Source of the DNA: Rhodospirillaceae bacterium Spongia-Bin9
Lineage (GTDB): Bacteria; Pseudomonadota; Alphaproteobacteria; Bin65
Assembly (NCBI GenBank): GCA_900197615.1
Contig: FZLR01000027.1
Coordinates: 1-34,773, forward strand
DNA: 34,773 bases
Direction: 5' to 3'
Notes under the pieces: model-generated
The model's input: the letters and a program-made list of their open reading frames with translations, nothing else
The model's database searches: none
What the model was told of the DNA's origin: nothing
In this document: positions 3,200 to 30,991 of the stretch, in pieces
Layout: each line of letters begins with the position of its first letter
Numbering within the stretch: position 1 is the first letter of the stretch
Made by a program: the position numbers and the translations under genes

Positions 3200-5593
3200 C
3201 TACGCCCCTGGGGTTGGCTCCGGATCCCTGTCCGGCGCAGGCATCTCCGGGTCGCGGATCGCCGCCGCGTCGAGGGCGTCGAGCACCCGCTCCGGCGTCA
3301 TGGGAAGCGTGCGCAGGCGCAGGCCGGTAGCGTGGGCGACGGCGTTGGCGATGGCGGGCGCGGCGCCGACCAGGGGCGGCTCGCCGATGCCCTTGGCGCC
3401 GAACGGGCCGGAGGGCTCCGGGTCTTCGACGATAATCGGGTGGAGGCCGAGCGGCAGGTCGAGCGCGCCGAACACCTTGTAGTCCATCATGCTCGGGTTG
3501 ATCGGCTGGCCGTCCTCCCACAGCAGTTCTTCGAGCAGGGCATAGCCGGCGCCTTGGACGAAGCCGCCCTGGATCTGGCCCTCGACCTCGGTGGGGTTGA
3601 TCGCCCGGCCGACATCGTGGGCCATCCAGGCGCGCAGGATATCGACCTTTCCGGTCACCGTGTCGACCTCGACCTCGACGACATGGGCGCCGAACACATA
3701 GGTGCCGATGCGTTCGAACGGATAGTTCCGGATCAGCGCTTCCTTGGTGTCGAACGCCTCGCCATCGTAGACCAGCGCGCCGCTGCCGATGATCGGCCCG
3801 CCGCTCCGGTAGTGCGCCCGCAGCGAGATATCGCCGAAGCCGATCTCCTTTTCCGGTACGCCGACGATGCCGGCCCGGCCGCCCGGCCTGATCTCGATGT
3901 CGGCGGGCGCGCATTCGAACAGCTCGGCGGCGTGGCGCACGATCTGCTCGCGCACTGCCCCGGCGGCCTGAACCACCGCCCGCCCGGCCATGTAGGTCAC
4001 CCGGCTGCCGCCGGTGCTCCAGTTGTAGGGCGCTGCGTCGCTGTCGACCGGCGCCGAATTGATCCGCCCGATATCGAGGTCCAGCGCGCCGGCGCAGATC
4101 TGCGCCAGCACCGCTTCGGCACCCTGGCCGAGATCGACCGCGCCGGTGGCCAGCGTGACCGTGCCGTCTTCGAGCAGGCGCACGGTCGCCGAGGTGCCGA
4201 GCAGGCCGCAGATGTGCGCGAAGGCCGAGACGCCGATACCGCGACGCTTGCCGCCCGTTTCGGCGTCGGCCCCGGCCCCGGCCCCGGCACGATGCCGTTT
4301 CCCCGTCCAGCCCGAGGCGTCGCGCGCCTCGGTCAGGCATTCGCTCAGCCCGCAGGATGTAATCGTCTGACCGCCGATCCAGCGTCCGCCGGCTTCGACG
4401 GCATTCTTCAGCCGCAGCTCGACCGGATCGAGGCCCAGCCGGCCGGCCAGCTCGTCGATCTGGGCCTCGGTCGCGAAGGTCACCTGCGGGTTGCCGTAGC
4501 CGCGGAAGCCGGCGGCGCGCAGGCGGTTGGTGTAGACGGCGCGCCCGCGCAGCCGGCAGTGCGGGATAGTGTACGGTCCGCGCGCCATCAGCAGGCCGAA
4601 ACCGAGCACCGCCGGGCTGTCTTCGGCATAGGCGCCGCCGTCGTAGACGATGTCGAGATCGCGGGCGACCAGGGTGCCGTCGGTCTTCGCGCCGGTTCGG
4701 ACCCGGACGATCGCCGGATGGCGCCGGCGCATCGCCATGAAATCCTCCTCGCGGGTCAGCGTCAGCCTGACCGGCCGACCGGTCGCCCGGGCGAGATGCG
4801 CCACCAGCGGCTGGATCGTGACGCCGGACTTGCCGCCGAAGGCCCCGCCGATCGCCGGCGTGGCGACCCGGATATTCGACATGGGCAAGTCCAGGGCGCG
4901 GGAGAGGGTGGCCTGCACCTTGTAGACCGACTGGTTGGCGGATTGGACCGTCAGCTTGCCGGCGCGGTCGAACTCGGCAATGGCGGAGACCGGCTCCAGG
5001 TAAACGTGCGATTGCGACGGCACCTCGTAGACGCCTTCGACGACGACGTCGCAGTTTCCCCAGGCCGATTCGACATCGCCTTCGGAAAATTCCTGCCGGG
5101 CGATCTCGTTGACGCGCTCGAAGCCGAGGTCCGGGCGCTTCTCGTAGCCGTCGAAGTCCGGGTGGACCGGAATCGCCCCGTCCTTCAGGGCTTCCTCGAT
5201 ACTCAGGACCGGCGCCAGTTCTTCGTAGTCGACCTCGATCAGCGCCGCTGCCGCGCGCGCGGTGGCGAGGTCGGTGGCGGCGACCGCCGCGACCGGCTCG
5301 CCGACATAGCGCACGACGCCGGCGGCGAGCGGGGTCTCGTCGTAGACGAACAGGCCCCAGCGCCGCGCCGGCAGGTCGGCGCCCGTCAGCACCGCCTTGA
5401 CTCCGGGCAGCGCCCGGGCGGCGGCCGTGTCGATGGCGAGGATGCGCGCGCTCGGCCATGGGCTGCCGAGAATGGCGGCATGCAGCATACCCGGCCGGGT
5501 AAGGTCGTCGGTATAACGCGCCGCGCCTGCCAGCTTGTCGGCGGCGTCGCGGCGCGGCAGCCGCTTGCCGATGGCGTCGGGGGTGGCGGTCAT
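3200..5593 (-). CDS. Xanthine dehydrogenase-family molybdopterin-binding (large) subunit
   Basis: This 797-residue protein is the catalytic subunit of a molybdenum hydroxylase. The first 130 residues form the small a/b-hammerhead domain (KLAGAARYTDDLTRPGMLHAAILGSPW). The molybdopterin-binding part follows. GGAFGGKSG and RAAGFRGYGNPQ are cofactor-contact segments, and the catalytic glutamate lies in GAKGIGEPPLVGAAPA (E738), as in xanthine dehydrogenase. The active-site loop does not show the AYxCSFR motif of form I CO dehydrogenase, so CO is an unlikely substrate. An aldehyde, N-heterocycle or aromatic CoA ester is more likely but undetermined. The ATG at 5593 overlaps the stop of the iron-sulfur subunit by four bases (ATGA); the longer frame upstream only overlaps that gene. 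It is the last gene of a three-gene operon. Confidence 0.93.
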   Translation of the reverse strand: MTATPDAIGKRLPRRDAADKLAGAARYTDDLTRPGMLHAAILGSPWPSARILAIDTAAARALPGVKAVLTGADLPARRWGLFVYDETPLAAGVVRYVGEPVAAVAATDLATARAAAALIEVDYEELAPVLSIEEALKDGAIPVHPDFDGYEKRPDLGFERVNEIARQEFSEGDVESAWGNCDVVVEGVYEVPSQSHVYLEPVSAIAEFDRAGKLTVQSANQSVYKVQATLSRALDLPMSNIRVATPAIGGAFGGKSGVTIQPLVAHLARATGRPVRLTLTREEDFMAMRRRHPAIVRVRTGAKTDGTLVARDLDIVYDGGAYAEDSPAVLGFGLLMARGPYTIPHCRLRGRAVYTNRLRAAGFRGYGNPQVTFATEAQIDELAGRLGLDPVELRLKNAVEAGGRWIGGQTITSCGLSECLTEARDASGWTGKRHRAGAGAGADAETGGKRRGIGVSAFAHICGLLGTSATVRLLEDGTVTLATGAVDLGQGAEAVLAQICAGALDLDIGRINSAPVDSDAAPYNWSTGGSRVTYMAGRAVVQAAGAVREQIVRHAAELFECAPADIEIRPGGRAGIVGVPEKEIGFGDISLRAHYRSGGPIIGSGALVYDGEAFDTKEALIRNYPFERIGTYVFGAHVVEVEVDTVTGKVDILRAWMAHDVGRAINPTEVEGQIQGGFVQGAGYALLEELLWEDGQPINPSMMDYKVFGALDLPLGLHPIIVEDPEPSGPFGAKGIGEPPLVGAAPAIANAVAHATGLRLRTLPMTPERVLDALDAAAIRDPEMPAPDRDPEPTPGA

Positions 5594-27443: not shown

Positions 27444-29570
27444 CACGCCGTTACCAGCGGGCGTTCGCCCGGAACAGGATCGAGTGCGCCGCCGGCTCGG
27501 GCCCGCGCGTCACGTCGCGGGTTCCTTCGAACCCGAACACTGTCTGCGGCGCAATCCGCCACCGGGCTCCTGCCCGCCACTGCTGCGTACCGCGCATCGA
27601 CAGCGAAAGTCCGGCATGGGGGGTCAGCAGTCCTGCGCCGACGGGCGCGCGAAGGCCGTAGCCGATTTCCGTGTTAAGCCGGCCCTCGGCCGCGAAGGCC
27701 TGCGCACCGTCGACGCCGGGCGCCCCCCCGGGCGCCGACTGCATCCGTTCGATACCGCCCGGCCCGGCGCCCCAGCCCGGCGCGACGGTCAGGAAGAAAC
27801 CGCGGCCGAGTTGACCGGGATTAATCCGGACCTCGCCGGTAATCCCCCACTCGCCGAAGCCCTTTTCCGCATGGGCCAGAACGCCGTGCGCATGGCCACG
27901 GACCGTGTAGCCCCGGGCCCTGTAGCGCACGCCGCCGCCGACCAGGATCCCGACGCCTTTATCGGCATCGCCGCCGTCGTGGCGCAGGCCGCCTTCCCCG
28001 GTGAGGGTCAGCGTCCCACCGCCGACCTCGAAGGCGCGCGAGCCCTCGCCGATGAGCCGCAGCCGCGTCGCTTCGCCCTGCGCGGCCACGAGGTCCCCGG
28101 CAGCGTCCGATTCGGCCTGCACCCACATCGCGTCCGCCTTGACGGCAAGGTCGATGCCCAGGCCCCAGTCCGGCGACGGCAGCCGGCCGCGCACGCCGCC
28201 CGACACAATGCGCATGCCGATATCGGTCCTGCCGGCGGCATCGTCCTCCTGCCGGAAATTCAGCTTGCCCTTGCCGGAGCCGACAATCCCCCAGACGTCG
28301 ATCGTTTCCGTCAGCCGGTAGCGGGCAAAGCCGTAGAGGTTCACGAGGCGGCCCTTGGATTTTCCGGCGACCTCGTCCCCGGCCAGTTCGAATACCCCGG
28401 CGCCCTCGCTGATCGAAACCGCAAGCCCGCCGAGCCATCTGTCCTGCGCAACGTCCGCCCCGATGACCGCCGTGCTCACATCGCCGAACAGGGGGACCGG
28501 CTTCTTCCTGGCGTCGAACCGGGCGATCCCGAATCGGCCCCAGGCGGTCCAGGTCGCCTCGCCCTTTTCGTCGTCGCCGGCGCCGATCTGGAACGAACTG
28601 CCGGGCGGCAGACCGGAGCGGGCCCGTCCCGGCATCGCCCCCCGAAAACCGGCCCTGTCCCATCCAACCTGGGCGCCGAAATTCCCGGAGGAACCCCAGC
28701 CGAAACCCGGGCCGGGATAGGCCGCGCCGCCGGCGGACATTCCGGCCACGGAGACTTGCGTCTCCGACCCGCCGTCGAAGCGTCCGTCCAGCGCATTCAG
28801 CATCTGGCTGCCGACCGTGCGCGCGAACCGGACGATCCAGGATTTCTGGACAGTATCGCCCTCGAGCCCTCTGCCGAGCCGTCCCGGCGGCGACCAGTCG
28901 CTGTCGCCATCCGCGTTGGTGGCCCGCACTCGAACCTCGTAGGGCAACTCCTCGTCGAAATCCTGAATGTTCAGGATTAGCGCGCTCGTCTCCGTCACGT
29001 CCTGCGGGCCGTCGATCCAGGCGTCGTCGGGACCGGCCCGGTACTGCAGGTCGTAGCTTTCGATTGGCGGACGGCCGCGGTTGGACGGCGCGGTCCAGCT
29101 GACCGACAGGCCGGTCCGGTCTTCCGGCGCCAACCGGACCTTGGGCGCCGCCGGCGCGCGCGGCCTCTCGGAAACATCGGTAACCGAGATGGTCGCGTCG
29201 ACGGTGTCGCTCGCTCTCCCGTCGCTCACCTTGACCGTGACCGTATAGCTCTCCTTGGCCTCGCGGTCGTAGACGGCGCCGGACCGGGTCATGATCTGGC
29301 CGCTGGTCCGGCCGATGGAGAAGAACCGCGCTTCCGCGCCTTCCAGGGTGAAGGTCAGCGGATCGTTGTCGGCGTCGGATGCTGTGACCGGACTGCCGAC
29401 ATTCTCCCCCGGCCTCGTCGTGTAGCCGACATTCTCCTCGAATCGTCAGCGTGCCGGGATCGTCCAGGACCGGTGCATTGTTCTGCAAGGAGTCGGTGCC
29501 GACGCCATCATTCCCGCCGCCACCGGTGTTGTCTCCGCCGGTGTTGCCGCCGCCGGTGTTGCTGTTGCCG

Positions 29571-29690
29571 TCGTTTCCGCCGCCGTCGTTTCCGCCGCCG
29601 TCGTTTCCGCCGCCGTCGTTTCCGCCGCCGTCGTTTCCGCCGCCGTCGTTTCCGCCGCCGTCGTTTCCGCCGCCGTCGTTTCCGCCGCCG
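29571..29690. repeat. 15-base tandem repeat, eight perfect units, encoding GGGND
   Basis: Eight identical units of tcgtttccgccgccg are bracketed on both sides by gtgttgctgttgccg. On the minus strand they encode a flexible Gly-Gly-Gly-Asn-Asp linker in the surface protein. Unit identity without silent changes suggests recent expansion by slippage. Unit number can change without breaking the frame. Confidence 0.95.
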
Positions 29691-30041
29691 GTGTTGCTGT
29701 TGCCGTCGTTTCCGCCGCCGCCGTTGCCGTTGTTGCTGCCCGAATAGACCGTAAGGAGCCCGACATTGTGGACCGGGCATTCGGCCTCGTGATCCCATAC
29801 TTCGTGGCTGAAGGTCAGCGATGTGGGGCGGGCCCTTTCGTCATCCGCATCGACATCGCCGTCTCCGTCGACATCTTCCAATTTTCTGACAGTGACTTTG
29901 CGCCAGGGCGTCGGATCGTCGAGGTTGTCGAGGTTGTCGGGTTTGTCGAATTTCCAACCGATCGATGGCACCCACTCGACGCCCTTGTATTTGCCGCCGG
30001 CACGCGCCGCGCCGTCGACATGGATCTTGACCCACCAACCT

Positions 30042-30209
30042 TCGGCATCTTCGTTGTCTGGCTGCTCGGCATCTTCGTTGTCTGGCTGCTCGGCATCTTC
30101 GTTGTCTGGCTGCTCGGCATCTTCGTTGTCTGGCTGCTCGGCATCTTCGTTGTCTGGCTGCTCGGCATCTTCGTTGTCTGGCTGCTCGGCATCTTCGTAG
30201 ACTGGCTGC
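30042..30209. repeat. 24-base tandem repeat, six perfect units plus one variant, encoding EDAEQPDN
   Basis: Six exact 24-base units (30042-30185) are followed by a seventh with two base changes (30186-30209), which reads QPVY in place of QPDN. The encoded acidic octapeptide lies just after the mature N-terminus of the surface protein. The antisense reading gives a hydrophobic WLLGIFV repeat that I regard as a shadow. Confidence 0.95.
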
Positions 30210-30457
30210 TTCGAAAGCCTCATCCAGTAGGTTACACTGTTCCCGTTGTTGAAATTCAGCGGGACGGACGATCCCGAGGTCGGGTTCACGCCATCGAGCG
30301 ACACCTCGACCGTACCGTCCCAGGAGGAGGTCTGCGCGCGGGCCGGTGGCGCCGCGACGGCGCACAGGAAGGCCGCCAGCAGGGTCGCGCAGACAGCGGG
30401 AATCGGACGCCGCCGAGCGGGACGTCCAAGCCATCTCCACAGGGATGGAAGCACCAT

Positions 30458-30991
30458 ATTCGGACGGCTTAAATCGGCGCCGAACCGTCAGACGGCGGAA
30501 AGCGTAGCTTTACCGCGGTCGGCGTTCGTGACCGGAAAGATGTCATGTGGATTCGCCATGTTCCTTGACGTCGGATTTTGCCAGGCGGTAAGTCTAGTTT
30601 GAAGCGCTGACAGACTCAGTTTATAACACTATTTGGTAGTTACAAGTAAAGGAAATACATTCCCTTGATTGGATGAGAGCAAGATTCAAATATTTTTTTA
30701 TAATAAGAATTATTCATTTCGTAGACATTTTCGCTACCGATCCGATTATCGCCGTTGGGGCGGGCGCCGATGGCGGATGCGCCGCAGCGGAGCCGGCATT
30801 CCGCGCGCTCCGTCATGCCCTCGGGCAGCGTGACGAAATGCCGAACATGCGGATTGTCAGCGGGCCTGGCGCCGGTATCATCGCCGCCGCCGCACAGCGC
30901 CAGCATATTCCGAGCCGGATCGCAACCGATCCGTTCCCCGCGCATCCTGACGCAGAAGATTCGGACTGCGCCGCCGACCGAAGCCGAAACC
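30458..30991. other. AT-rich intergenic island with candidate promoters
   Basis: This 534-base gap separates the start of the surface-protein gene from that of the ThDP enzyme. Bases about 30590-30730 are far more AT-rich than anything else in the window and include a run of seven T and a TATAAT at 30699-30704. A minus-strand frame from ATG 30945 to 30640 (101 residues, MRGERIGCDPARNMLAL to MYFLYL) is open but unlike any family I know, and plus-strand frames are open there too. I do not call it a gene. Confidence 0.5.
30599..30627 (+). promoter_or_regulatory. Candidate sigma-70 promoter toward the ThDP enzyme gene
   Basis: TTGAAG (30599-30604), a 17-base spacer and TATAAC (30622-30627) match the sigma-70 consensus in four and five of six positions. 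Transcription would start near 30634 and leave a leader of about 360 bases before the ATG at 30992. The base composition of the region supports a promoter; which of the nearby elements is used is unknown. Confidence 0.4.

Follow-up and report, generated by a model that had tools for sequence, protein, structure and literature searches.

The SD repeat of staphylococcal adhesins acts as a flexible neck, and the passenger of type Va autotransporters is usually a β-helix. Published systems close to the locus described here are the periscope proteins SasG, Rib, Sgo_0707, and CdrA, for which PMC8201768 describes near-identical DNA repeats beside a distal domain, the SD-repeat adhesins (PMC3324548), and Bartonella adhesin A, which PMC8859334 reports to have been studied with long reads. 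Frame-preserving length change is a known kind of variation; here it occurs in a protein whose outermost domain is missing from the searched catalogues. The locus lies in the window, the whole stretch of 34,773 nucleotides that was analyzed, and belongs to a sponge-symbiont-type alphaproteobacterium. We conclude that it probably encodes an autotransporter-like surface protein, likely adhesive, whose neck and head loop were lengthened by recent in-frame repeat expansion.

The gene spans positions 27451–30457 on the minus strand, and its frame begins at 30457. Two perfect tandem arrays lie within it, both on the minus strand. The first consists of eight exact copies of the 15-base unit GGCGGCGGAAACGAC at 29570–29689, which encodes G-G-G-N-D (GGGND), and GNSNT stands on either side of the eight units. 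The second consists of six exact copies of the 24-base unit GCCGAGCAGCCAGACAACGAAGAT at 30047–30190, which encodes EDAEQPDN, and a seventh, diverged unit (QPVYEDAE) adjoins its N-terminal side at 30191–30214. The sequence-only reading of this DNA had reported these unit counts, including the single variant, and had called the units frame-preserving; the counts are exact and both unit lengths are multiples of three. It had also placed the arrays about 350 bases apart in one gene. The spacing is 357 bases and both arrays share the frame of an open reading frame at 27959–30457 (minus strand), but the gene is not a single open frame as assembled. On the plus strand, an open frame of GIFVVWLL units (29768–30472) also crosses the 24-base array; it was set aside because conservation, domains, and the ortholog all point to the minus strand. 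Its openness is uninformative, since repeating a unit of a length divisible by three introduces no stop in a frame where the unit itself has none.

Both arrays are far above chance and the genome background. Tandem Repeats Finder scores were 324 for the 24-base array and 271 for the 15-base array (reported with a 15-, 30-, or 45-base period), compared with a top score of 70 in 100 dinucleotide shuffles of the window and of 106 in a sample of the same genome (20 contig pieces, 179,787 bases). Calculated from codon frequencies in 16 other genes of the window, the probability of coincidental full codon agreement is P = 1.9e-8 for the six 24-base units and 1.0e-5 for the eight 15-base units. The rare codons CCA (3%) and GGA (7%) recur in every array unit. 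Identity of the units at synonymous sites, rare codons included, argues that the arrays arose by DNA copying and not by protein-level selection alone. The recent expansion proposed from the sequence agrees with these identical synonymous codons and with a same-genus ortholog that has neither array; it is well supported at the between-species level, with one genome representing the window's species, and the length variation between cells that the sequence-only reading had also proposed is a prediction.

The translated gene is organized into a series of domains, all on the minus strand. The N-terminus (30332–30457) has an Arg-rich start and a hydrophobic core, ends in PPARAQ, and looks like a typical Sec-type signal peptide, as judged by eye from the translation alone. 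It precedes a head domain (29738–30331; WDGTVE ... GWWV ... HEVWDHxxxCPxH) that is conserved in seven other loci and modeled as a β-sandwich (pLDDT 59.8), followed by a Gly/Asn-rich neck of 86 residues (29483–29740). A cadherin-like domain (PF00028, 29182–29391) scores 27.2 bits, just under the 28.8-bit cutoff, and a fibronectin type III (fn3) domain (PF00041, 28885–29142) is detected with E = 9.4e-11 and 42.2 bits against a cutoff of 25. The last ~470 residues (27451–28860) form a long helix and an autotransporter-like C-terminal β-barrel ending in FRANARW (pLDDT 60.5). Model confidence is low for both the head and the barrel, at a pLDDT of about 60. Within the head, the stretch DVDGDGDVDADDE (29837–29875, minus strand) is common only to the window and the bin65 ortholog among eight aligned head domains, and we take it to resemble a calcium-binding loop motif. 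This layout supports the surface-type protein that had been proposed, with a predicted surface location, and the domain types suggest an adhesin role. Genes for fn3 and cadherin domains are enriched in sponge-associated MAGs, according to PMC8163846.

The ortholog (G005:C57, MPMX01000070.1) belongs to Rhodospirillaceae bacterium bin65, a member of the same genus. It is a single frame of 944 residues from which both arrays are missing, and it lies near the same flanking enzyme gene as the window gene, which presumably encodes a thiamine-pyrophosphate-type enzyme. The head is 75% and the C-terminal part 67% identical between the two copies; the repeat stretches thus vary while their flanks are conserved, the pattern for which the sequence-only reading had suggested a check. 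The flanking enzyme gene is also present in four other genomes (G001–G004), where the surface gene is not beside it in the 10–11.5 kb covered per genome. In one of these (G003:C63, L089 619–1337), an acetyltransferase-like gene has beside it a further, partial copy of the enzyme gene that covers the last 66 residues at 85% identity, apparently a sign of local duplication near the locus in another species.

Comparison with the ortholog locates a one-base reading-frame shift in the window copy at ~29436–29443 (minus strand), outside the repeat arrays and homopolymers. The shift follows LDDPGTLTI and sits between the neck and the cadherin-like domain, downstream of both arrays, and the cadherin, fn3, and barrel portion is read in another frame. 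The continuous frame from passenger to barrel that is present in the ortholog is absent here. With the shift between the repeats and the rest, the gene copy reads as broken as assembled, both repeat stretches being separated from the membrane anchor, and it may make no anchored protein. Such a break could mark a recent pseudogene, in which the arrays expanded neutrally in a decaying sequence, the frame shift having preceded them or followed shortly. Its position between the arrays and the anchor fits this explanation, as does a barrel paralog in the same genome that ends at a repeated sequence resembling a mobile-element end. No frame break occurs across 19,515 bases in the 16 further genes of the window that were checked, so random assembly error is not the default. 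However, identity to the ortholog by codon position is 0.818/0.892/0.736 before the shift (148 codons) and 0.767/0.836/0.602 past it (648 codons). Persistence of the coding constraint pattern past the shift indicates either a recent break or a mistake in the assembly, and both arrays hold the frame and read stop-free. We consider a decaying gene unlikely.

The copy numbers and the shift could instead have arisen from short-read or hybrid assembly through the repeats, in which case the true gene is intact with another unit count. The arrays measure 120 and 144 bases, near or above common assembly k-mer lengths, and the genome is a 316-contig draft in which copy number may be wrong. Tandem repeats are described as a cause of assembly errors in PMC6868369. 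Against this origin, collapse removes copies and so cannot create arrays, and some 125 bases separate the shift, which does not fall in a repeat run, from the nearer array. An assembly artefact is less likely than not, and it is not the explanation we favor.

Both arrays fall in naturally variable places, the head loop and the neck. Residues 48–96 of the head model, which hold the 24-base array, all have pLDDT <50 and lie between strands 32–39 and 99–105. Counted by eye on the alignment, the loop from RLS/T to WW has 58 residues in the window and 7, 11, 12, 12, 14, and 17 residues in six relatives, the eighth row being without the loop region. None of the six relatives covering this region has a long loop, so an acidic loop of 58 residues is unusual. 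An already variable head loop, acidic in several relatives, has thus been multiplied. In the bin65 ortholog, this loop reads KQPDKQPSDQK and the neck is 52 residues of different sequence, against 86 in the window. Necks in other relatives also differ: L052 has a Gly-rich repeat after the head with a 15-base period and ~32 copies, L053 has poly-G followed by GGD/GGN, and the L054 contig ends within GGN repeats after the head. In L098, L099, and L100, there is no Gly-rich neck and the head passes directly into Calx-beta-like sequence (called by resemblance in these three and by Pfam, E = 3.4e-18, in L052). The absence of a neck from these three more distant relatives shows that it is not essential to the head domain.

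Variable linker sequence among relatives is also what would be seen if the arrays were ordinary low-complexity linkers under relaxed constraint, their length having no functional consequence. Two other genes likewise carry low-complexity insertions, one of them RpoD-like and in the same genome, the other reductase-like and from another species. What weighs against this account is the absence of such arrays from other barrel genes of the genus and the shortness of the head loop in the six relatives. The 16 barrel ORFs in the examined genus loci, ortholog included, have varied passengers, and the 15 besides the ortholog have short-period repeat scores of 110 or less and lack such arrays; two of them carry domain repeats of 315–357 bases. 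Length without consequence is less likely than not, and expansion at two length-tolerant sites of a surface protein is preferred.

The barrel model comprises a helix at residues 2–28 and then a run of strands, at the low confidence given above. VIA-align placed the autotransporter EstA (3kvn_A) first, with Z = 18.0, an rmsd of 3.4, and 226 aligned residues, and the top 20 also included EspP, NalP, AaaA, Hbp, and AIDA-I, every alignment starting at the leading helix. Barrels that are not autotransporters (CymA, Tom40, FadL, and VDAC) reached Z = 16–17, within 1–2 Z of the autotransporters. TonB-type receptors led the Foldseek matches, with the autotransporters BrkA and Hbp in the top six. Pfam searched at E up to 5 gave no family for the barrel (27454–28860), and NCBIfam at E up to 1 gave no match. 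Because other barrels are close in score and there is no Pfam or NCBIfam match, the barrel is termed autotransporter-like and not filed; its model most resembles autotransporters and is placed in no catalogued family.

Three further barrel genes were noted. At the start of G000:C138 (L026 1–48), a barrel paralog in the window's genome is cut near the end of the contig by a 31-base sequence. This sequence occurs four times in that genome, three times or more near the end of a contig, and is therefore probably a mobile-element end. A relative of the 820-residue barrel protein of L028 stops early in the barrel region at 523 residues (G004:C43, L072 834–2402), so frame loss may occur elsewhere in the barrel family. 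A perfect 7-base repeat of 7.9 copies lies at the start of a 1542-residue barrel-protein ORF (G002:C119, L065 5025–5079) and is a candidate on-off tract because its unit is not a multiple of three.

Phase-variable contingency loci have a unit that is not a multiple of three in the coding frame, or a promoter repeat. On-off phase variation of the window gene through repeat slippage is very improbable, since its 15- and 24-base units are in frame and the shift lies outside the arrays; copy-number change with such units alters length and does not switch the gene off. A switching tract is conceivable in the lineage of the spirochaete relative L053, whose neck has runs of 35 and 16 G residues with frame loss. 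There the frame is lost within the G runs (L053 6345–6409, Spirochaetaceae bin103) and a different frame takes over for the Calx-beta and barrel part, explained either by an error of assembly or by phase variation of the poly-G tract.

Most interesting at this locus is the head domain, which is uncatalogued and patchily distributed across several phyla. In none of its eight members did Pfam assign the head to a family; two chance matches, Sigma70_ner and Nop14 (E ~0.5), were dismissed because they are confined to the acidic repeat. Foldseek with the head model found no match at E ≤ 0.001, and PDB sequences searched with a profile yielded a single chance match (E = 0.26). VIA returned general immunoglobulin-like sandwiches, chaperones, and pilus parts with Z up to 8.5 and indicated no family. 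Among the titles listed on sponge-symbiont autotransporters with cadherin domains and on tandem-repeat or glycine-rich surface proteins, none describes the protein.

The head profile matched 1 of 385 genomes in the class sample, the window's own (G000). A fuller profile matched 2 of 386 relatives and a search of the order 2 of 11 genomes, in each case G000 and G005. Around the genomes of L052, L053, and L054, the matches were 1 of 143, 1 of 297, and 5 of 298 relatives, with the center genome counted among them. Four true relatives were found among 26 matches in a pattern scan of genome contigs, namely an alphaproteobacterium (bin65), a gammaproteobacterium (Immundisolibacterales), a spirochaete (bin103), and an acidobacterium (277c_4); 43 pattern-matching stretches in viral contigs included no relative. 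The scan patterns contained HEVWDH, so the constancy of this motif in the first five alignment rows is partly a search effect, and later rows carry HELWDH or HEVRDE as well at this position. A weak partial match in G854 (L101, E = 3.1e-5) was excluded from head alignment A6. Two low-complexity matches to the repeats were dismissed as relatives: G000:C129, with an Asn/Gly-rich insert in a gene that we take to be RpoD-like, and G026:C2, with QPTQEIAA repeats in a presumably ribonucleotide-reductase-like gene. The latter gene enters this repeated 8-residue stretch at L029 ~4060–4190, and the contig ends inside it. According to PMC5649159, bin65 and the spirochaete bin103 are both bins from the sponge Aplysina aerophoba. 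Specimen 277c is a Petrosia ficiformis sponge in PMC8941161, and acidobacterium 277c_4 would come from it, as judged by the name; a search for the host of L052 (APA_bin_69) found none.

These distributions allow a broader and rather speculative reading, which we hold to be improbable as a whole. The head would be a laterally exchanged β-sandwich module that sponge symbionts from several phyla use in their surface proteins; where the sequence is visible, a barrel would anchor the Calx-beta or cadherin/fn3 stalk that carries it. Each lineage would use fast DNA repeats (24- and 15-base in the window, 15-base in L052, poly-G in L053) to tune the acidic loop and the Gly-rich neck and so vary contact with the host or with other symbionts.

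The narrower explanation, a lengthened autotransporter-like protein, predicts the following course. The signal peptide would direct inner-membrane crossing and the C-terminal barrel would insert in the outer membrane, displaying the fn3 domain, the cadherin-like domain, the neck, and the head outside. Whole sets of codons would recently have been gained, through slippage during replication or through unequal recombination of identical units, at two length-tolerant sites, the neck, where length may affect reach and flexibility, and the acidic head loop, where it may affect charge and possibly metal or ligand contact. For fast surface variation in uncultured sponge symbionts, the locus provides a concrete candidate defined at the sequence level, and it bears on how sponge hosts and bacteria recognize each other. 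Long reads give the unit counts directly, and the HEVWDH...CP.H head is a searchable marker for sponge metagenomes. A further caution from this locus is that repeat-rich genes in draft genomes may have a broken frame.

Known systems share parts of this design. Bartonella adhesin A is likewise an outer-membrane adhesin whose repeat number varies, but it is a trimeric autotransporter with long folded stalk repeats. The SD-repeat adhesins are cell-wall anchored in Gram-positive bacteria and have a different repeat. They resemble the window protein in having a short acidic in-frame minisatellite in an adhesin (PMC3324548). Type Va autotransporters (EstA, EspP, NalP, and AIDA-I) provide the best structural matches and have the same order of N-terminal passenger, helix, and C-terminal barrel, whereas the window barrel is without a Pfam or NCBIfam match and its passenger consists of fn3, cadherin-like, and uncatalogued head domains. 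Periscope proteins are surface proteins with near-identical DNA repeats and frame-preserving length change; according to PMC8201768, their repeats are mostly folded stalk domains with counts shown to vary between strains. The window units encode 5 and 8 residues instead of a folded domain that forms a stalk, the 8-residue array is modeled as disordered (pLDDT <50), and one array lies inside the head. Highly identical DNA repeats are present in the window gene (six and eight perfect units, at a predicted surface location). By analogy, the protein would work like a periscope protein, with identical DNA repeats setting its length, and it is best called periscope-like.
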